Positions 1 to 8,645 of a DNA stretch of 64,000 nt are shown in pieces (the first letter of the stretch is position 1; each line of letters opens with the position of its first letter). Position numbers and translations under genes: made by a program. The notes under the pieces were generated by a model. It was given only the letters and a program-made list of their open reading frames with translations. It did not search any database and had not been told where the DNA came from. Origin of the DNA: Thermanaerosceptrum fracticalcis (GTDB lineage Bacteria > Bacillota > Peptococcia > DRI-13); the NCBI RefSeq assembly GCF_000746025.2, contig NZ_CP045798.1, forward strand, positions 2,218,501-2,282,500, in the 5' to 3' direction.

Positions 1-454
1 ATATTTCTGTTGCCATTCTGATCGTCTGAACTGCAGCCATAAGCTGATCCAGATCAGGAACTTCCTCCGGGTTGCGCCGTTTCAAGAAATCAATAAAGGC
101 TTTTTGCGTGATTGGCTTATTGAAGGCACTCTTCCACTCTTGGAGTTCTAAAGATTCCTGAAAGCGGTAAACAATGGTGTCCTGGGGTCTGTCCTGTACC
201 GATTCATCAACAATAACCTGGACCTGCTTTTCATCATAGAAAATAATTGTGTTCCTGGGATTGGGTTTGCCACTGCTATCAACTGTTAAATGCTTAAGTA
301 GATCAATTACGGCTTGAGCAGAACCAGCAACATAGTTAAAACCTGTGTAATGGAAGCTGTACTCATCTTTTACCTTCTGTTGGCTCTCAATGATATGAAC
401 GGTTGCTTTCTCCTGACCAGGAGCCATATTAACAATTAATTTTTCATTATCCAT
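1..454 (-). CDS. DUF2303 (YfdQ-like) phage protein, 3' end outside window
   Basis: An open frame begins at ATG 454 and runs off the left edge, giving 151 visible residues. An AAAGGTGAG-type ribosome site precedes the ATG. The middle part (FHYTGFNYVAGSAQ, then NTIIFYDEKQVQVIVDES, then LQEWKSAFNKPITQKAFIDFLKRR) resembles DUF2303/YfdQ proteins, found in phage early regions and of unknown function. It is the most downstream gene of a minus-strand run of phage genes that includes a YqaJ recombinase. The family call is from memory of its pattern and is moderate; that it is a real phage-type gene is more certain. Confidence 0.6.
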   Translation of the reverse strand, partial: MDNEKLIVNMAPGQEKATVHIIESQQKVKDEYSFHYTGFNYVAGSAQAVIDLLKHLTVDSSGKPNPRNTIIFYDEKQVQVIVDESVQDRPQDTIVYRFQESLELQEWKSAFNKPITQKAFIDFLKRRNPEEVPDLDQLMAAVQTIRMATEI

Positions 455-485
455 AATTACTCACCTTTCTTAATTTGATTTTGGA

Positions 486-815
486 TTACTCATTGACCGG
501 CTGTTTTCCGGGGAACAGGGAAAGATTGCTTTCCTTCTTCTTAGGTGGGGCTTCAGTTTTAAGCTGAAAATCGCTGGTCATTTGGGCATAATGGACCTTC
601 TTAACCTTGGGCAAAGACTTTGACATTGAGTAATTTATCCAGATCATTTGCCCTTCGTCTTTTCTTTGAAAGTCCAGTTTAATTGTGATACTGCCTGTTT
701 GTCCTGCCTTTAAAGCCGCTATTACCTCGGGGTAATGGCGCTGGAAGTCTGCCTCTAGCTCTCCACGGCAGACATTGGCGAGGGATAGATTTTGTACAAG
801 CTCCTCGAATCCCAA
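486..815 (-). CDS. hypothetical phage protein
   Basis: A 109-residue frame starting with TTG at 815, with AGGAGTG about nine bases upstream. It is hydrophilic, with no signal peptide or membrane segment. The N-terminus (FEELVQNLSLANVCRGELEADFQRHYPEVIAAL) looks helical, and the rest has alternating beta-type stretches. I do not recognise a named family. It lies 31 bases upstream of the DUF2303-like gene and 16 bases downstream of a winged-helix gene, so it is part of the phage early operon. Confidence 0.6.
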   Translation of the reverse strand: MGFEELVQNLSLANVCRGELEADFQRHYPEVIAALKAGQTGSITIKLDFQRKDEGQMIWINYSMSKSLPKVKKVHYAQMTSDFQLKTEAPPKKKESNLSLFPGKQPVNE

Positions 816-831
816 TCTCTCTCACTCCTTT

Positions 832-1122
832 TCAAAGTAACTGCAATATGACCTTCATACCTTCATCACTAAGGTAATACTCCGCACAGGTTTTCCCGGT
901 AACGGTACACTTCCTCTTTCCCTTGACCTCGACAAGGCCCTTTTCTACCAGTTCATTTAAACGTGGATGAACAAAATTACGATCAAAGTAAGGGATAGCC
1001 CCGCTATTAGCCATCTTTTTGGCAAGCTCGTTTGCCGTCAGGGGCAAACCAACAAAAACCAAAGCGGCCAAACACTTTAATTGCATCATCCCGCAGCTTT
1101 CAAGGACCTCATCATAACTCAT
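832..1122 (-). CDS. small winged-helix-like phage protein
   Basis: About 96 residues from ATG 1122 (AAGGAG nine bases upstream). A TTG at 1158 with GGGAGG in front would add 12 residues and cannot be excluded. The pattern QLKCLAALVFVGLPLTANELAKKMANSG, then VHPRLNELVEKGLVEVKGKRKCTVTGKTCAEYYLSDEG, reads as a winged helix: helix-turn-helix followed by a wing with a charged hairpin, as in MarR- or DprA-WH-like domains. Its role in the phage (DNA binding or a small regulator) is inferred only. The 3' end of the YqaJ gene directly abuts it, so translation is probably coupled. Confidence 0.55.
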   Translation of the reverse strand: MSYDEVLESCGMMQLKCLAALVFVGLPLTANELAKKMANSGAIPYFDRNFVHPRLNELVEKGLVEVKGKRKCTVTGKTCAEYYLSDEGMKVILQLL

Positions 1123-1159
1123 TCGCCGCGTCTCCTTAGTAATTGCGGTAATGCCCAAA

Positions 1160-2179
1160 CTATTTCCCTCCCTTCTTCTTCGTAATCCGTAGCACCCGGA
1201 TAGTGGGTTGCGTTACCCATTGGTTATAAAGAACCGGCTCTTTCTTGGCAAACTCATCAAAATCAATACTACGCCTACCTTTTTGGGTCTTATAACTCAC
1301 CTCATAATAATGACCGTCAATTTCGGCGGTATAGCCTTTCTCTGCCGCAGCTATCCTGAGCTTAATCTCCTGGTCCATCTTCTCCTTTTGTTTTTCCAAC
1401 AAACTCAACTGTTCAACAACCTGTGCCCTGGCTTCAAGAAGTCCATACAGATCCGACATGTCCACAGATTCGCCGGCATTTTCCTGAGGATAGAGTTTTT
1501 TAATTACCGCATTGGTAGCTTCTGAACCGTCAGGAGGCGGAACTTCCTTGGCCAGTACATGATTCTTCCAGAAATTTTCCGCAATCTCCAGAAGAACCGT
1601 AAAAAACTGCTCATCGAAAGGTATGTACACATAGACCAGCTTGTACCCCCCGACCAGACAGACTAGCCAGCAATACTTGAGCCCCATCACGCCCATTTCC
1701 CACTGGCACTGGCAGAAGTAATCGTCTGGAACCTTACCGTCTTTCCCGTCCTCTCCTTCCTCCCACTCCCCGGCCAGGAGCCGATCGGCTGTTTTGACCT
1801 CCAGGAGACCATCCCCCAGGGGGTTCTCCGGGTCAATAATCTTAAAGTCAATTTGTGTCCTGGCCCACTCGGGAAGATCCGTATTTCCAAAGATAGCGTT
1901 TTGCCGGATAATTTTCACCGAACGGCCCAGGCGTTTTTGCAGTTCTCCCTCGGCTTTATCCCGAACAAAAGGCTCCAGGTACTTTCCAAGCTCCAAGCGG
2001 ATAGATTCTTCTTTCTCTTCCACCTTGGAAGTCTTTTCAAAATATACCGATATAGCAGACCTCCACTTACTCAAACCCGCTATGGCCCCAATATCGGAAG
2101 CCCCGATCCCCTCTTGCCGGGCTTTGAGCCATTGTTCCTTAGTCATGTCCAGGGTGTTATATATCCTAATTGCACTCAT
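1160..2179 (-). CDS. YqaJ-family viral recombinase (lambda-exonuclease fold)
   Basis: This 339-residue protein has the hallmarks of YqaJ nucleases. EQWLKARQEGIGASDIGAIAGLSKWRSAISVYFEKTS lies near the N-terminus, an acidic residue sits in ARTQIDFKI (about residue 110), and the PD-(D/E)xK-like core GDGLLEVKTA is near residue 125. The Q-x-Q-W-E-M-G-V-M-G motif near 160 is typical of the family. Such enzymes resect dsDNA 5'-3' and pair with a single-strand annealing partner. The start ATG overlaps the stop of the upstream ATPase gene by four bases (ATGA), which indicates coupling. No RecT-type annealase is visible here; it may lie left of the window. Confidence 0.88.
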   Translation of the reverse strand: MSAIRIYNTLDMTKEQWLKARQEGIGASDIGAIAGLSKWRSAISVYFEKTSKVEEKEESIRLELGKYLEPFVRDKAEGELQKRLGRSVKIIRQNAIFGNTDLPEWARTQIDFKIIDPENPLGDGLLEVKTADRLLAGEWEEGEDGKDGKVPDDYFCQCQWEMGVMGLKYCWLVCLVGGYKLVYVYIPFDEQFFTVLLEIAENFWKNHVLAKEVPPPDGSEATNAVIKKLYPQENAGESVDMSDLYGLLEARAQVVEQLSLLEKQKEKMDQEIKLRIAAAEKGYTAEIDGHYYEVSYKTQKGRRSIDFDEFAKKEPVLYNQWVTQPTIRVLRITKKKGGK

Positions 2180-3678
2180 AACGTTTCCACCCTCAATTCC
2201 CCGACGTAATTACCCTCTTCGTCATAGTCGCGTGATATATCGGTGATGAAGTATTGGTATTCATCATCCTTGATCTCGTCATAGACCATTTGCTGCCGTA
2301 CAGGATCCAGGCTTTCAAAACGGTCCAAACAGATAACTTTGAGGGGGCCACAGGTAGCGCGGGCAATGTCGAGAGCAAGGCGAATCTTCCGGGAGTCCGA
2401 CAGATTGCGGATAGGGAGCTTATCAATAGTGACGTTCCCCTCTGCGTCAATGCCCAGGCCCTTAACCGGTAGCTGTATATCTGCCAAAAGTTGTGCGGGC
2501 AGTTCCCTTGCTTTCTGTACAGCTTGATTTAGCCACTCGGCACGGGCCAAAGCTTCCTTGTACTCCCTTTCCACCCGTAACATATCTTTGTAGATGGGAA
2601 TATAGCCCTTCATTTGTTCGGCATCCTGGGCTTGTTCTTCTAGCGGAGAAACGTCTATAGGTTTCTGTTTAATGAGTTTGCGGCAAATGTCGGCCTGTTC
2701 TTTGATCTTGTCCAAGGCAGCAGTAGCTTGTTCCTGGAACCTCGCAATCTCAACCTCACACTCTTTGTCAATATCCTTAATATCCGACCCAGTTTTGATT
2801 TGCAGCTGCACAAGTTCAGCCTGGAGCTCCTCAATCTGTTTCAAAATTTGAGATTTACGTTCCTGGGCTTTGCTCTGAATCCGGTCCTTGCGCCTCTGAG
2901 CTTCGGTTAAAGTAGTAGCTTTAAGGGCTTCCAGCTTGTCTAGGACGGCCTGTTTCTTCTCCTCTTCCTGTTCTAAATACTCCTGGGCCTTTTCAAGACG
3001 CGCGTTGAAATCCCGTGCTTCTGCGACCTCTTTCCAAAGTTCCCCGATATTGACCTTTTCCCAATCCTCGGCAACATATCCAGGAGGCAACTGTTCAAAG
3101 AGTGCATCAATCTGGTTTTTGAGGGCCTTTACTTCCCCGTTGGCAACGTGCCTCTTGTTGTAGTAGTACTTTTCCAGCTCTTTGAGTACCTGGAGCGCAT
3201 GGAGATGAAGATTGACCGGAGCGACTTCGCCAAACCATCCTTTTATCTGATCCTCGTTTACCCTCATAGGAACCAGGGAAAGAAGAATCTCAACCTGTTC
3301 AGAATCCTTCTTTTGGAGAAAATCAACAGGGTTAAACTGAAAGCCCTCGGTCCCTATCAAAGATTTAAGGGTTGTCTCAGGCTTGGGCGCATTGTAACCA
3401 TCCTTAGTGACGGTCACTTTATCGCTGCCCTCTTCCCGCAAAGTCCTTTCCACAGCAAGGCCATTATCTAGCTCAACGTATAAATTGGCCTCATTCTCGC
3501 CGGCCTTCACGTACTTAACCCTGCGTCCTTTGTTGAAGATAACCTTTTCAATTGCTTCCAAAAGTGAAGTTTTTCCGGCTTCATTAGCTCCTTTGATGAT
3601 ATTGATATGCTTTGGCTCAAACTTTAGCTCTTTTATGCCAAGAAAGCCCTTGATTTGCAACTTAGAAATCTTTGTCAT
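2176..3678 (-). CDS. SMC/SbcC-like AAA ATPase of phage recombination module
   Basis: A 500-residue P-loop protein. Walker A is GANEAGKTS at residues 30-38, preceded by the beta-strand start typical of RecF/SbcC/SMC heads. A long central coiled coil rich in Glu, Lys and Gln runs from about 170 to 390 and has no CxxC zinc hook. An ABC-signature-like segment is NLSDSRKIRLALDIA, and the Walker B strand reads VICLDRFESLD, with Arg where most relatives carry Glu. It likely manages DNA ends together with the YqaJ nuclease encoded directly downstream. The ATG at 3678 follows AGGGGTG. Confidence 0.85.
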   Translation of the reverse strand: MTKISKLQIKGFLGIKELKFEPKHINIIKGANEAGKTSLLEAIEKVIFNKGRRVKYVKAGENEANLYVELDNGLAVERTLREEGSDKVTVTKDGYNAPKPETTLKSLIGTEGFQFNPVDFLQKKDSEQVEILLSLVPMRVNEDQIKGWFGEVAPVNLHLHALQVLKELEKYYYNKRHVANGEVKALKNQIDALFEQLPPGYVAEDWEKVNIGELWKEVAEARDFNARLEKAQEYLEQEEEKKQAVLDKLEALKATTLTEAQRRKDRIQSKAQERKSQILKQIEELQAELVQLQIKTGSDIKDIDKECEVEIARFQEQATAALDKIKEQADICRKLIKQKPIDVSPLEEQAQDAEQMKGYIPIYKDMLRVEREYKEALARAEWLNQAVQKARELPAQLLADIQLPVKGLGIDAEGNVTIDKLPIRNLSDSRKIRLALDIARATCGPLKVICLDRFESLDPVRQQMVYDEIKDDEYQYFITDISRDYDEEGNYVGELRVETL

Positions 3679-3727
3679 TTAACACCCCTGCCTTTCATGT
3701 TAAAATGATGATAAATTGTTTCTTGTT

Positions 3728-3756
3728 AGCTGGGTCTTTCAGTGTGAAAGCCCGGC
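3728..3756 (+). terminator. hairpin with plus-strand U tract, antisense to phage operon
   Basis: AGCTGGGTCTTTC pairs imperfectly with GAAAGCCCGGCT around a short loop, and a run of T (CTTTTTCTTTT) follows on the plus strand. On the minus strand, the direction of the flanking genes, no U tract follows. It could stop antisense transcription or act as a leader structure upstream of the ATPase gene. Confidence 0.4.
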
Positions 3757-3820
3757 TTTTTCTTTTGTTTTGCTGGAGTCCTTAACTTGTTGCATTACCT
3801 GTAATACCGGAAGCATTTCT

Positions 3821-4018
3821 TTAACCTTGCAACACATTGGCGGAATAAGGAATCTCCTCACATTTTTCACCCCCTTCCGCATCAAAATCAGTCTTTAGCT
3901 GTTTTTTCTCTTCTTCGAGTAGTTGTTTAACAATGATATTTGCAACCACATCGATAGCAGCTTGCGGATTAGGATGAGGAACTGTAATTACGGTTACACG
4001 CGCTTTTAACTTAGCCAT
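3821..4018 (-). CDS. small hypothetical phage protein
   Basis: Sixty-five residues from ATG 4018, preceded by GAGGAGACAGC (GAGGAG, good spacing). The N-terminal part (MAKLKARVTVITVPHPNP) is beta-like, followed by an amphipathic helix (QAAIDVVANIIVKQLLEEEKKQLK) and a tail with a single Cys. No family is recognised. It is one of several small genes between the Cro-like regulator and the ATPase, in the same direction. Confidence 0.5.
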   Translation of the reverse strand: MAKLKARVTVITVPHPNPQAAIDVVANIIVKQLLEEEKKQLKTDFDAEGGEKCEEIPYSANVLQG

Positions 4019-4154
4019 GCTGTCTCCTCATTACACCGAATGTGCAATAGCCATTCCCTTGACAATGGCCGTGTAGATTTCCTTGAGACGCTTGTTCTGC
4101 TTTCTATCACGACGAGGTTGTCCACTTGATCTCCTCCTTTTATCAGTGCTTAAT

Positions 4155-4379
4155 TTATCTAACTTTTGTAGTCATATCGACTGCATCAAATTCAAAAAAA
4201 ATTTCATCAATTGGGTGTTCGAGGATATCTGATATCTTTTTGGCAGTTTCAATGTCAATTTTTCTCTTCCCTGTTTCAAGTTGGTTATATCCACTGGCAT
4301 ATTTATAACCGAGTAGCTTAGCCATCTCTTCTTGAGAAAAACCCGCTTTTTTGCGTAACTTTCTTAAGTTTTGCAACAC
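4155..4379 (-). CDS. Cro-like XRE-family helix-turn-helix regulator
   Basis: The protein is a single XRE helix-turn-helix domain (LRKLRKKAGFSQEEMAKLLG, then YNQLETGKRKIDIETAKKISDILEHP) with a short acidic tail. A perfect AAGGAGGTGA ribosome site at 4387-4396 points to GTG 4379 (or TTG 4376) as start, which gives the usual compact N-terminus; longer starts at 4403 and 4418 are possible. It is divergent from the CI-like gene at 4540, and the gap holds promoters for both and a palindromic operator. By analogy it is the lytic-side regulator opposing the repressor. Confidence 0.82.
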   Translation of the reverse strand: MLQNLRKLRKKAGFSQEEMAKLLGYKYASGYNQLETGKRKIDIETAKKISDILEHPIDEIFFEFDAVDMTTKVR

Positions 4380-4422
4380 ATCAATCACCTCCTTAGCAGT
4401 CATTTTGTGAACCACCAATTAA

Positions 4423-4451
4423 ATAATATACTCATTCCGTGTATCCGTCAA
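4423..4451 (-). promoter_or_regulatory. sigma-A promoter for the phage early (minus) operon
   Basis: On the minus strand TTGACG (4446-4451) and TATTAT (4423-4428) are separated by exactly 17 bases. It points into the Cro-like gene and lies next to the palindrome at 4459-4473. Confidence 0.65.
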
Positions 4452-4458
4452 TAAAAAA

Positions 4459-4473
4459 TAGTCATTTTGACTA
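4459..4473. promoter_or_regulatory. palindromic operator of the lysogeny switch
   Basis: TAGTCA-TTT-TGACTA is a perfect 6-bp inverted repeat with a 3-base spacer. It lies between the two divergent phage promoters, as expected for a CI/Cro operator. A related half-site-like AGTCATTTTG occurs at 4398-4407. Binding by the encoded repressor is inferred. Confidence 0.6.
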
Positions 4474-4488
4474 CGTAATAAAAAACTA

Positions 4489-4517
4489 TTTTCATGTTCA
4501 CAAATTGTGTATATAAT
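4489..4517 (+). promoter_or_regulatory. promoter for the repressor gene
   Basis: TATAAT at 4512-4517 is a perfect -10. TTTTCA at 4489-4494, 17 bases upstream, is a fair -35. The repressor ATG follows 22 bases after the -10, leaving a very short leader. Confidence 0.5.
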
Positions 4518-4539
4518 GTGGTCAGGAAGGTGGTTGATT

Positions 4540-4935
4540 ATGGTTGCCTTTGGAGAAAGAATAAGAGAGTTAAGAGAAGAGAAAGGTCTAAGCCAAGAAG
4601 AGCTTGGGAAAATACTTAAAGTAGCGAAATCTACTATTTCTCAGTATGAGTTGGGGAAACGCAATCCAGATCCCGAAACATTAGATAACTTGGCTAATAT
4701 CTTAGATTGCAGTGTAGATTACCTACTTGGTCGCACAGATGAACGCCGTCCAGCAGAAAAAGTCATCGAGGAAGCCATATCCGATGACGCGGAATTGCTT
4801 GAATTTTTCCAAGACCTAAAGCAGAGAGATGACCTTCAATTACTTTTCAAACAAGTTAAACCTCTTTCGCAGAACACAATCAAAAGAATAATTAAATACA
4901 TAAAAATGGTTGAAGATGAAGAGTCGCAGGAATAA
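4540..4935 (+). CDS. CI-like XRE-family phage repressor
   Basis: From ATG 4540 (AGGAAGG upstream) the 131-residue protein begins with a classic XRE domain: FGERIRELREEKGLSQEELGKILKVAKSTISQYELGKRNPDPETLDNLANILDCSVDYLLGRTDE. The C-terminal 60 residues are a helical acidic region with no LexA-type protease fold, as in short ICE/phage repressors that are cleaved by an ImmA-type protease. An ImmA/IrrE-like gene follows at 4990, which supports that scheme. Likely role: maintenance of lysogeny by binding the 4459-4473 operator. Confidence 0.85.
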   Translation: MVAFGERIRELREEKGLSQEELGKILKVAKSTISQYELGKRNPDPETLDNLANILDCSVDYLLGRTDERRPAEKVIEEAISDDAELLEFFQDLKQRDDLQLLFKQVKPLSQNTIKRIIKYIKMVEDEESQE

Positions 4936-4938
4936 TAA

Positions 4939-4972
4939 AACCCGCCATCCAGCAGAAGGATAGCGGGTTATT
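4939..4972 (+). terminator. hairpin between repressor and protease genes
   Basis: AACCCGCCATCC pairs with GGATAGCGGGTT (one mismatch) around an AGCAGAA loop, followed by a weak T stretch (TATTTAT). It lies just after the repressor stop and may partly terminate or stabilise that message. Confidence 0.55.
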
Positions 4973-4989
4973 TATCAAGGGAGGAGAAA

Positions 4990-5328
4990 ATGACTTTTGA
5001 CGAGCTTTGTGGCATAGTTCGCGAAAGGATTGAGACAGATTCTTATGCAGCGCTAAATATATATTCCCATGTTGTACCTTTAGGAGGTGAGGTCCTGGCG
5101 TTTGTGTATCGATCAAAGAAAAATAATTTTCATATTTTTGTAAATGAATCGCTATCTATTGAAATACAAAGGAAAGTGTTTATCCATGAACTTTATCACA
5201 TCACTTTTGATATGCCGGAAGTAGGCTATATTCTTGGGGTGGACAAGCAGAGAAGCCCAATGGAAAAAGAGGCGGATATATTTTCAAGAAAAATCGATTT
5301 AAAAGGCAGGGAATATTATGTTTTTTAA
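4990..5328 (+). CDS. ImmA/IrrE-type metallopeptidase
   Basis: A 112-residue protein with the zinc-protease motif HELYH at residues 66-70 (VFIHELYHITFDM) and a downstream Glu in MEKEADIFSR as the probable third ligand. ImmA/IrrE proteases cleave XRE repressors to trigger induction; the repressor is the gene just upstream. GGGAGGAG sits ahead of the ATG. The last 11 bases overlap the start of the next gene. The catalytic motif is visible; the substrate is inferred from context. Confidence 0.85.
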   Translation: MTFDELCGIVRERIETDSYAALNIYSHVVPLGGEVLAFVYRSKKNNFHIFVNESLSIEIQRKVFIHELYHITFDMPEVGYILGVDKQRSPMEKEADIFSRKIDLKGREYYVF

Positions 5329-6100
5329 ACTTAAAAAAGTTACATGGGTATTTCTTATTTTGATAATTATTATAAATACAATACCTATTAATACCGTCGG
5401 AGCTTCATTGGAAAAAGTATTGCTTAAAAAAGTAATGGATACTGACTATAAGGCTATTATTGTTCGTTCTAATGGAGAAATGTATTTAATTGAATATGGC
5501 GTTGGGGTTATATCACTATGGTTATACGAAGGAAGATATATACATATATATTCCCCCGGAATATTTGCAGGAGTTGGTTCAAAAATTATGCTGTTAGACA
5601 AGGATCGGGAAGCACGTATTTGGAATAGCGAATACATAGGTCAAGAAAGTAGTAATAATTCTTCAATAACAACAACGCCGAATAGTTCAATACCCCAAGG
5701 GGAAAACGCGCTCGATATTATCAGGGAAAGAGAAGAAGAAAAAAAGCAACCCTCCGAAATATTAGTAATTATTAATGGAGAACTGATCGATTTTAGAAAT
5801 AAACCCATTATAGAAAACAATCGGCTTCTGGTTCCTTTTAGAGAAATTGGAACTGCTCTTGGGGCCAAAATATATTGGGATGATTCGACAAGAACCGTTT
5901 CTTTAGAATTGGGAGAAAAACGAGTTGTACTTTTTATTGATTCAAAATCTGCGCTTGTAGACGGCAAACTGGTAATGATGGACGTTCCAGCAAGAATTAT
6001 AAATAATGCAACATATATTCCCCTAAGATTTGTTGGCGAATCGCTTGGCGTTAGCGTTAATTGGAACCCAGATTTAAGGAGAGTTGCAATAAGCAAATAA
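5318..6100 (+). CDS. secreted copper-amine-oxidase-N (stalk) domain protein
   Basis: The 260-residue protein starts with a signal peptide (charged MFFKLKK, hydrophobic WVFLILIIIINTIPINTVGA). A unique region of about 100 residues and a Ser/Asn/Thr-rich linker follow. The C-terminal 110 residues form the Cu_amine_oxidN1 domain (VIINGELIDFRNKPIIENNRLLVPFREIGTALGAKIYWDD, then YIPLRFVGESLGVSVNWNPDLRRVAI). That domain is a cell-surface binding or stalk module in Firmicutes; no oxidase catalytic domain is present. It overlaps the protease gene by 11 bases and precedes the integrase, so it is expressed in the lysogen and looks like a prophage cargo gene affecting the cell surface (inference). Confidence 0.8.
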   Translation: MFFKLKKVTWVFLILIIIINTIPINTVGASLEKVLLKKVMDTDYKAIIVRSNGEMYLIEYGVGVISLWLYEGRYIHIYSPGIFAGVGSKIMLLDKDREARIWNSEYIGQESSNNSSITTTPNSSIPQGENALDIIREREEEKKQPSEILVIINGELIDFRNKPIIENNRLLVPFREIGTALGAKIYWDDSTRTVSLELGEKRVVLFIDSKSALVDGKLVMMDVPARIINNATYIPLRFVGESLGVSVNWNPDLRRVAISK

Positions 6101-6118
6101 ATTTATTCGGAGGATACA

Positions 6119-7615
6119 ATGCTTAAAGCAGTAGCCTACGCCAGATATAGCTCAGAAAACCAAAGAGAAGAATCTATATCGGCCCAAATATCCGCTATTC
6201 AAAACTATTGTTTGCAAAAAGGCTATACCCTTGTTGATACATATATCGATGAAGCAAAAACAGCCACCACGGACAGGCGGCCAGCTTTTCAGAAAATGGT
6301 CCAAGATAGCGCCAAGGGGCTTTTCAATATTATCGTCGTCCATAAACGGGATAGAATATTCCGGGACAGGTATGATGCTGCCTTTTACAAACGACAATTA
6401 AAGAAAAACGGGGTAATAATAGAAAGCGTTCTTGAATACCTGGACGATTCCCCAGAGTCCATAATCCTTGAATCTGTTCTGGATGGCATGGCCGAATATT
6501 ATTCAAAAAACTTGGCCAGGGAGGTTAGGAAAGGGATGCTGGAAAACGCCAAAGCTGGTATCCATGTTGGCGGCCGCCCTCCGTATGGATTGCGGGTAAA
6601 TCCAGAGACCCAAAAATATGAAATCGATCCGGATAGATATCGGGCAGTACAAATATATTTTGAAAGCGTAGCAAAGGGAATAAGTTTGAATAAAATCGCT
6701 CAAATATTGAATGAACTAGGATACCGCACACAAGAAGGAAGGAAATTTACTAAAAACAGCTTTGATGGTTGGGCGAATAACCGCAAGTATATTGGAGAAT
6801 ATACCTGGGATGTATCATCTTCTAAAAATGAAGATAACAGAAGGAATAATCATAAAAATAAGCCGTCAGAAGAATGGATAGTTATCCCCGGAGCTATCCC
6901 GCCTATAATTTCCAAGGAACTGTTCGAAAAAGTTAATGAAATGATGAAAGAAAGGAGACATAAAGGGGCAAAGATGAAAGCGAAAGTTAATTATTTGTTG
7001 AGCGGGAAAGTATACTGTGGACACTGTGAAAAGCCATACAACGGATGTGCTTTTAAAAGCAAAGACAATTATTATACTTATTACGCCTGTAACGGAAAAT
7101 GCGGCAACAGGAAAATCCAAAAAGAATATCTCGAGGAGCTGGTAATAAAAAATCTCATCGAGACATGCTTTGCGCCAGAAGCCATGCGCGATATCGCCCA
7201 AAGAGTCCAAGAACTATATCAGGAAAAATACAATAATATCGAAAATGAACTAAAACCGATAAAAAAAGAACTAGATAATCTAAACAAACAGATTGATGCC
7301 TGGACCTATAATTTGGGCAAGGGAATTGACAATGTGCTGCTTCCCAAAATCCAGGAAGCCATCAACAGGAAAGAAGCCCTTGAATATGAACTGAAGAAAG
7401 CCTTAATAGTCAAGGCAATGCCGGAAATAGATGAAATGAAAATTATTGAAGTAATGGAAAATAAAAAAGACCTGCTCTTCTCCGATAATGACGAAGATAG
7501 AAAGCAGATCATTCAAGAATTTGTTGACAAAGTTATTGTGAAACATTCAGATGGTGGCGAATTTGACATCACCTTGAATGTTAGGGTTTTTAATGGTGGA
7601 GGTGAGGGGAGTTGA
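6119..7615 (+). CDS. large serine recombinase (phage integrase)
   Basis: A 498-residue large serine integrase. The resolvase domain at 1-150 carries the nucleophile motif YARYSSENQ (Ser11) and the conserved arginines of VVHKRDRIFRDRYD. A recombinase domain follows (HVGGRPPYGLRVNPETQKYEID, near 150-270). The zinc beta-ribbon has CGHC and a second Cys pair near 300-335, and a coiled coil occupies about 355-430. GGAGG precedes ATG 6119. Its last codons (GGGEGS and stop) are read from bases that are also the 3' end of ssrA on the other strand. This places it at the element boundary, in the position expected for an integrase next to its att site. Confidence 0.92.
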   Translation: MLKAVAYARYSSENQREESISAQISAIQNYCLQKGYTLVDTYIDEAKTATTDRRPAFQKMVQDSAKGLFNIIVVHKRDRIFRDRYDAAFYKRQLKKNGVIIESVLEYLDDSPESIILESVLDGMAEYYSKNLAREVRKGMLENAKAGIHVGGRPPYGLRVNPETQKYEIDPDRYRAVQIYFESVAKGISLNKIAQILNELGYRTQEGRKFTKNSFDGWANNRKYIGEYTWDVSSSKNEDNRRNNHKNKPSEEWIVIPGAIPPIISKELFEKVNEMMKERRHKGAKMKAKVNYLLSGKVYCGHCEKPYNGCAFKSKDNYYTYYACNGKCGNRKIQKEYLEELVIKNLIETCFAPEAMRDIAQRVQELYQEKYNNIENELKPIKKELDNLNKQIDAWTYNLGKGIDNVLLPKIQEAINRKEALEYELKKALIVKAMPEIDEMKIIEVMENKKDLLFSDNDEDRKQIIQEFVDKVIVKHSDGGEFDITLNVRVFNGGGEGS

Positions 7616-7620
7616 ACCCC
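7594..7620. other. probable attachment site (att) in the ssrA 3' end
   Basis: The element's integrase gene ends inside the tmRNA acceptor/T-arm sequence. The gene content switches here from phage to conserved host genes (ssrA-smpB-rnr). ssrA is a well-known integration target. The exact crossover bases cannot be fixed without the other junction, which is outside the window. Confidence 0.6.
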
Positions 7621-7943
7621 TGTCCGAAGGACCGACCACAAGAGCTTCTACGAGCGTAGTTTGTGTTTTAAATCTCGCCTTTGGGACTCCCACAAACAGG
7701 ATGCCCGCCGGCCAGTCCCATTAGTTTCCCCCCGGGTTATGAGACTCTGGCCCGGAAGTAGCCTGCTAAAATGACCCCTTAGCCCTCACCGCAGGCACAG
7801 AAGGTAAGAGGTTAGACTGCAATTAAGCAGCTAAAGCGTAATTTTCGTTAGCGTTTACTTTTTGTGCATTGTTTTTACGAGCTAATGCGACCTCGGCTCG
7901 CTTCTCCTGCCACCGCTTCCCCCGTCGAAACCAGTACACCCCC
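7594..7943 (-). ncRNA. ssrA: tmRNA (ssrA)
   Basis: A 350-nt tmRNA on the minus strand. The 5' acceptor strand GGGGGUG (7943 downward) pairs with CACCUCC before A-CCA at the 3' end, and CCA is encoded at 7594-7596. The T-arm GGUUCAACUCC is present. The tag frame at 7823-7852 reads ANENYALAA followed by UAA, ending in the degradation signal ALAA. It charges with Ala and rescues stalled ribosomes together with SmpB, encoded just upstream. The mature 3' end overlaps the last codons of the integrase on the opposite strand. Confidence 0.95.
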
Positions 7944-7954
7944 AAAAAAATTAT

Positions 7955-8070
7955 CAGTTGTTAGTTACTAGTTGCTAGTTCCTAGTATCATAATATTTCA
8001 ATTGGGTATACAGGATAACATAACGATTACAAATTTTTACTAGTAACTAATAACTAGGAACTAATAACTG
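7955..8070. repeat. inverted heptamer arrays flanking a 50-bp core
   Basis: The left arm 7955-7987 is built from TAGTTAC-type heptamers (variants TAGTTGC, TAGTTCC). The right arm 8038-8070 is its inverted counterpart: the reverse complement matches the left arm over 33 positions with only a few variable third-of-unit changes. A 50-bp AT-rich core lies between. The right arm enters the 3' end of smpB and supplies its TAG stop. The core probably carries the ssrA promoter. Confidence 0.8.
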
Positions 8071-8534
8071 TTTTTATCCTTTCCCCGCAAGGCCCTATCC
8101 ATTTCCCGCCGGGCGTCCTTCTCGGCAATAGCATCGCGCTTGTCGTGAAGTTTCTTACCTTTAGCCAGGGCAATCTCTACCTTGGCCCGGCCGCGTTTGA
8201 AGTAGACCTTGAGAGGAACCAGGGTTAAACCCTGCTGCATCACTTTGCCGAAAAGGCGGTTGATTTCACCTTTGTGGAGAAGGAGTTTTCTCGCCCTGAG
8301 GGGATCCACATTAAAGCGGTTTCCCTGCTCATAAGGGCTGATGTGCATATTGAATAAGAACATCTCGCCGTTTTCTACTCGGGCATAGCTGTCTTTGAGA
8401 TTAGCTTTCCCGGCACGTAGCGATTTTACTTCCGTACCGGTTAAAGCAATACCAGCCTCATAAGTTTCTTCAATAAAGTAGTCGTGGCGAGCTTTGCGGT
8501 TTTCGGTAACGACTTTTACGGCTGCATCTGCCAT
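8061..8534 (-). CDS. smpB: SsrA-binding protein SmpB
   Basis: SmpB binds the tRNA-like domain of tmRNA and brings it to stalled ribosomes. From ATG 8534 (GGGGAGAAGAAG in front) it has 157 residues, the usual length. The frame extends to 8597, but the extra 21 residues lack a ribosome site. The signature [30 protein letters not shown], the central [20 protein letters not shown] and the basic tail ([26 protein letters not shown]) are all present. The last residues NSY and the TAG stop are encoded by a heptamer repeat. ssrA lies directly downstream and rnr upstream, a conserved Firmicutes order. Confidence 0.97.
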
Positions 8535-8645
8535 TCTTCTTCTCCCCTGGTAACTTTTTACGTTTTCCGATATCCGATTTTGACCTCCGAGAATCATTGG
8601 GGCTGATTGTGAGGTCTACAACTGTTATTTGATTAGATTACCAAG

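Follow-up and report, generated by a model that had tools for sequence, protein, structure and literature searches.

What becomes of a phage integrase whose reading frame ends inside the gene at which its element is inserted? This question is raised by a stretch of 64,000 nucleotides (nt) from Thermanaerosceptrum fracticalcis (contig NZ_CP045798.1, positions 2,218,501 to 2,282,500; hereafter the window), in which the gene of a large serine integrase, int, runs into the 3' end of the transfer-messenger RNA (tmRNA) gene, ssrA, on the opposite strand. Our analysis indicates that the locus very probably belongs to a temperate phage whose attachment site (attP) lies astride the 3' end of int, its own integrase gene, the integrase tail being swapped on integration. 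The window belongs to a single 3.8-Mb contig, of which 100 kb leftward was searched for a second attachment core. The overlapping features are as follows.

6119 to 7615, plus strand: int, large serine integrase, lysogen form of 498 amino acids (aa) with the C-terminus ...FNGGGEGS, from an open reading frame (ORF) call
7613 to 7615, plus strand: TGA stop codon of int in the lysogen, placed by sequence and tRNA numbering
7594 to 7943, minus strand: ssrA (tmRNA) with the tag ANENYALAA (ARAGORN; Rfam RF00023, 217.5 bits)

The int protein contained the domains PF00239 Resolvase, PF07508 Recombinase and PF13408 Zn_ribbon_recom, and residues 1-481 matched the PHROG 95 integrase (1.2e-111). A resolvase N-terminus, a Recombinase domain and a zinc ribbon, together with long helices in the structure model of the relative L129, as expected for a coiled coil, agree with the architecture of large serine integrases. 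The end of int is encoded opposite the last 22 bp of ssrA, and an overlap of identical size was found again in 11 relatives. In tRNA numbering (position 76 being 7594), the TGA lies opposite, and is complementary to, T55-C56-A57 of the tmRNA T-loop. In relatives with G57, the TGA becomes CGA and the int frame stays open further.

An exact same-strand copy of 7594-7605 was found at window coordinate -31704 (genome 2186796; L003:8296-8307), so that the left junction lies 31.7 kb beyond the left edge of the window. A given 12-mer is expected by chance about 0.01 times in 100 kb, both strands counted. A genome-wide search for the ssrA 3' repeat (20-mer, up to 3 mismatches) matched the ssrA copy alone; it missed the left copy because the core identity is 12 bp. 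The attachment features are given below.

7594 to 7605: core of the right attachment site (attR), the 12-bp identity block TGGTGGAGGTGA, equal to the last 12 nt of the tmRNA
7575 to 7593: attP arm TGAATGTTAGGGTTTTTAA, doubling as the int codons NVRVFN
window -31682 to -31664: inverted partner arm TTAAAAACCCTAACTTTCA, at the left end of the prophage

The partner arm adjoins the left core and is an inverted copy of 7575-7593, matching at 18 of 19 positions. The reconstructed attP reads TGAATGTTAGGGTTTTTAA-TGGTGGAGGTG/AACTAATACTC-TTAAAAACCCTAACTTTCA, with its arms symmetric about 7604/7605. This 19-bp dyad (18/19), with a central GA common to both junctions, has the form expected of a serine-integrase attP. 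The GA at 7604-7605 is probably the crossover dinucleotide, because the identity block ends at 7605 and the attP dyad is centred on 7604/7605; the switch of sequence right after GGAGGCGA between the 98%-identical integrases L048 and L049 agrees with this. The excised circle is predicted to have the junction ...TTTTTAATGGTGGAGGTGAACTAATACTCTTAAAAACCC, and the empty ssrA to read ...TTTAAATTTTGGTGGAGGTGAGGGGAGTTGAACC.

The element delimited in this way is a prophage of 39,310 bp, with its left end at window -31704 (genome 2186796) and its right part at 1 to 7605. It has an intact ssrA at one end, the 3' fragment of ssrA at the other, and phage genes in between: the small and large terminase, a P22-like portal, the major capsid protein and tail-fibre-like proteins, as well as RecT, a RecE-like exonuclease, a DnaD-like loader, an M23 endolysin-like peptidase and helix-turn-helix (HTH) regulators. 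Since the phage supplies a core equal to the last 12 nt of the tmRNA, ssrA remains intact.

An ssrA-oriented terminator hairpin, with a 13-bp stem and a T tail, stands 10 bp outside the left core (L003:8255-8285, minus strand; -16.7 kcal/mol, z -3.2), as expected if this was the original 3' flank of ssrA. The same-genus genome G001 has an ssrA with AAATTT next to TGGTGGAGGTGA, matching our left junction. No integrase of int's family was found in G001, the sole same-genus genome examined, which is 80% complete. In relatives where both were found, matches to hlyIII of the left flank sit on contigs other than that of ssrA. Similar integrases also sit in ssrA in G012 and G029, two relatives whose contigs end short of the left junction.

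These results bear on an earlier note on this DNA, made from the letters alone. Its observation that the int stop and the GGGEGS codons lie inside the 3' end of ssrA was confirmed within the 22-bp overlap. The element boundary, which it had put in or near 7594-7620, could be narrowed to the core at 7594-7605 with its second copy at -31704, and the other junction, expected left of the window, was found there with an ssrA-like core, which leaves the claim standing. The statement that integration leaves the tmRNA intact also held, the phage-borne core being the last 12 nt of the tmRNA. Moreover, a related strain with int at this place and no element had been named as a case that would speak against the idea; G001 instead has ssrA without such an integrase.

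The int tail differed between the two states. In the lysogen, int ends in ...GGGE-GS, with 498 aa, of which the final 2 residues are host-encoded. In the reconstructed circle, it ends in ...GGGE-LILLKTLTFTLCY (...FNGGGELILLKTLTFTLCY), with 509 aa, of which 13 residues are phage-encoded. The reading frame is thus closed in the lysogen and in the reconstructed circle alike. All recognised int domains end upstream of the switch point. In the model of L129, a free-form relative, the tail was disordered: residues 497-515, past the last beta strand (487-494), had a predicted local distance difference test score (pLDDT) below 50; the overall predicted template modelling score (pTM) of this model was just 0.40. 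The swap spares the folded parts, because the domains end before the switch and the modelled tail follows the last beta strand. As reconstructed, the full integrase is present in both states, the exchange is limited to the terminal 2 or 13 residues, and the swap is reversible with the catalytic parts kept. No obvious ssrA-like tag stands at the end of either tail. The proposal of the earlier note that integration completes the int frame was therefore not borne out, the frame being already closed in the 509-aa form; of its further suggestion that the full integrase exists only, or in a different form, in one state, the difference in the C-terminus stood and the restriction to one state did not.

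Natural relatives were found in both forms. Integrases about 55% identical to int (L128/L008, L129, L130/L009 and L053) have the C-termini GGGELTLLKHLTF[PQS]YQK, and their ends align with the reconstructed tail GGGELILLKTLTF. Carriers of the free-form tail include metagenomic relatives, L053 being from a metagenome-assembled genome. No tmRNA was found when it was looked for in the three viral records. L128 has int followed by an endolysin gene, and also a homologue of our left-end large virion protein (E 3.6e-35, 23% identity), which is the gene order expected of a circle. The integrases of L048, which is integrated, and L049, which is free-like, are 98% identical and part ways directly after GGAGGCGA. 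Likewise, the integrated L051, with 78-82% identity to the free forms, changes over at that base too, after GGAGGCGA (pair L051/L129). In L049 and L054 the junction is probably a tandem one, with the tail supplied by the neighbouring element. L047/L049 and L051/L054 are probable tandem pairs of elements at a single ssrA, where the outer integrase takes its neighbour's tail. A further record, L127 (Moorella phage MCACPph1, OR602863), is labelled a complete phage genome. Its integrase reads into an apparent antisense tmRNA, and therefore the end of this record seems to be an integrated junction with host sequence.

The free tail was compared codon by codon among four close free tails (13 codons plus stop); L054, a probable tandem hybrid junction, was for that reason left out of the main test. 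In-frame codon pairs differed by 24 synonymous and 5 non-synonymous changes. The two remaining forward frames gave 2/22 and 0/25, and the reverse frames 4/25, 5/20 and 2/22. None of 20,000 column shuffles was as extreme as the observed fraction. When the reconstructed tail was added, the first nine codons gave 37/8. Furthermore, the stop position of the free tails was constant and was provided by three codons, TGA, TAG and TAA. Lysogen tails were diverse across relatives. The codon comparison offers good, though not conclusive, evidence of purifying selection on the free tail as protein.

The anatomy, an attP astride the int 3' end with a core shared by ssrA, is secure as read from the junctions. 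Several points nevertheless weigh against the tail swap and a role for the tail. The codon test uses four close tails and ours, in non-independent comparisons, and some of the tail DNA doubles as an attP arm. The records of the three viral relatives describe linear contigs, so it is their gene order and lack of tmRNA that point to a free state. The Clostridium-group tails outside ssrA (PH, A, PSPYLITYLCDKNCFIAN) are not conserved, some of them probably being tandem junctions. In addition, the mobility of the element is a prediction from its sequence.

Under the tail-swap reading, the long-tailed integrase would, upon infection, carry out attP x attB recombination at GA 7604-7605, with ssrA as the bacterial site attB. 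In the lysogen, the integrase with the host-encoded tail would excise the element together with a directionality factor, and excision would bring back the long tail. Because the tail is under codon-level selection, it may do something in the free state, for instance tune the efficiency of integration or block reversal or re-integration, by analogy with phage Mx8; this is a weaker inference. A stronger form, in which the free tail (LxLLKxLTF...) is a functional state tag that makes the infecting integrase competent or efficient for integration, while its host-encoded replacement biases against re-integration or toward excision, is put forward tentatively and is rather unlikely to be right as worded. 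It is also possible, though somewhat unlikely, that the overlap is incidental: attP would fall across the int 3' end, the residues would be idle, and the tail would be kept merely as an integrase-bound attP arm. The 14-bp inverted arm inside the tail codons agrees with this explanation, as do the low-confidence position of the modelled tail residues outside the folded domains and the range of lysogen tails, from 2 residues to long antisense read-through of tmRNA or tRNA. However, it is only in the int frame that the differences among free tails cluster at synonymous sites, and they do so beyond the arm too; the stop stays in place through TGA, TAG and TAA, whereas a constraint of DNA binding alone would ignore the codon frame.

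The change of the int frame upon integration might also mean that the integrase works in the circle only and that the lysogen version is dead, an option discussed earlier for the Dehalococcoides protein DsiB (McMurdie et al., PMC3146451). For int this is very improbable, as the recognised domains are all upstream of the switch, the lysogen form stops two residues past the last shared one, relatives with an intact lysogen-state integrase are common, and a phage whose enzyme is dead in the lysogen would be stranded. A long-fixed gene overlap with no mobile junction, left by a domesticated integrase remnant beside ssrA, would fit the presence of the exact element in one sequenced genome only; it is made extremely improbable by the perfect core copy, the intact attP dyad, the displaced terminator and a phage gene set with several structural ORFs of intact length. 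Finally, there may be an effect beyond the tail swap. Integration displaced the probable ssrA terminator by 39 kb, to the left junction, and therefore ssrA transcription may run antisense into int and repress it in the lysogen. On the minus strand, the stretch from 7593 to 7416 yielded no good terminator, but processing of the tmRNA 3' end together with a weak terminator-like site (7416-7400) may be enough, and such repression appears unlikely.

The arrangement was not confined to this locus. Among related integrases with a readable end, 23 of 109 read into antisense tmRNA and 14 of 109 into antisense tRNA genes; in the genome-collection subset, the numbers were 22/75 and 11/75, respectively. 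The census genera include Alicyclobacillus, Desulfosporosinus, Desulforamulus, Paenibacillus, Clostridium and Moorella, and the tRNA genes entered antisense were those for Leu, Pro, Met, Gly, Ala and Gln. C-termini read from antisense tRNA (tails like RTGIEP- and GFEPPT) were observed in L033, L036, L028, L078, L088-L090 and others. The overlaps enter tRNA or tmRNA in two of the three antisense frames, about 30 of 37 in one and none of 37 in the third. In a quickly built tree, no fewer than 12 changes of the ssrA label are required on branches with good support. This number is too high as a count of independent target shifts, since free and tandem forms were scored as "none seen" and one ssrA row, L071, received that score by mistake.

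Two other genes of the window adjoin this region.

4507 to 4935, plus strand: HTH repressor-like prophage gene, upstream of int (PHROG 8, 9.5e-31)
8061 to 8597, minus strand: putative smpB, in the host flank adjoining ssrA, an ORF named from sequence

Between the regulator genes and int, 5318-6100 (plus strand) encodes a 260-aa protein with a Cu_amine_oxidN1 domain (3.9e-34). This cell-surface-type domain is odd near an integrase, and the gene is possibly cargo. Near the left end of the prophage, a 3015-aa ORF (L003:10858-19905, minus strand) has a distant homologue in the phage contig L128, and its product is perhaps a giant internal virion protein. The prophage also contains a trypsin-like protease with an S-layer homology domain (L003:9896-10723, minus strand).

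Serine integrases are widely used genome-engineering tools, and their direction is set by a separate factor. The natural paired forms, 98%-identical enzymes with different tails, allow one to ask whether the tail affects direction. For annotation, gene callers include host-antisense residues in these integrase proteins. If the tail is a state tag, it would be a directionality layer within the attachment site of serine-integrase phages that target tmRNA or tRNA genes.

The integrase of Myxococcus phage Mx8 is a tyrosine recombinase. Its attP also lies within int, and integration alters the int 3' end and the specificity without inactivation; there are two neighbouring sites, attB1 and attB2, and the swap was shown to change activity (review PMC6070905). 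Our locus resembles Mx8 in having attP inside the int coding sequence and a new int 3' end after integration, the reconstructed circle form having 509 aa and the integrated form 498 aa. It differs in that a large serine recombinase acts at ssrA, and the swap, as reconstructed, exchanges a short tail alone. A closer parallel is found in the Dehalococcoides ssrA islands, in which the 3' end of dsiB always overlaps the ssrA attachment site (McMurdie et al. 2011, PMC3146451). The dsiB stop lies outside the island, even inside ssrA, the DsiB C-termini are divergent, and a circle-only function was suggested (PMC3146451). Both systems thus have a serine recombinase gene whose 3' end overlaps the ssrA attachment site. 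Compared with the description of DsiB, however, our element is a prophage with a single PHROG 95 integrase; its probable crossover lies some 11 nt from the 3' end of ssrA, and the free-form tail is conserved at the level of codons. The islands also have a smaller second serine recombinase, DsiA, beside the CcrB-like DsiB, whereas no second serine recombinase was found among the seven annotated ORFs upstream of int within the window.

As in the tRNA and tmRNA islands of Islander, the element brings the 3' fragment of its target gene and restores the target. In mycobacteriophages with integration-dependent immunity, attP lies inside the repressor gene, the phage and prophage C-termini differ, and a degradation tag is involved. 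Virion and prophage repressor alleles have also been described in Bifidobacterium (PMC6109161). The likeness is an attP in a coding gene whose C-terminus differs between phage and prophage; the difference is that the repressor is altered there and the integrase here. The Islander paper, confined to tyrosine integrases, stated that tRNA genes were not among the known targets of serine integrases, and named Mx8 and SSV as integrases extending across attP (PMC4383910). Contrary to that statement (PMC4383910), tmRNA and tRNA genes are often targeted by serine integrases in the census above. A literature phrase search on the integrase C-terminus found nothing. The phenomenon itself has precedents in Mx8 and DsiB, and a circle-dependent function was already proposed by the DsiB authors; what is added here is the phage large-serine-integrase setting, the breadth, the exact natural switch pairs and the codon evidence.
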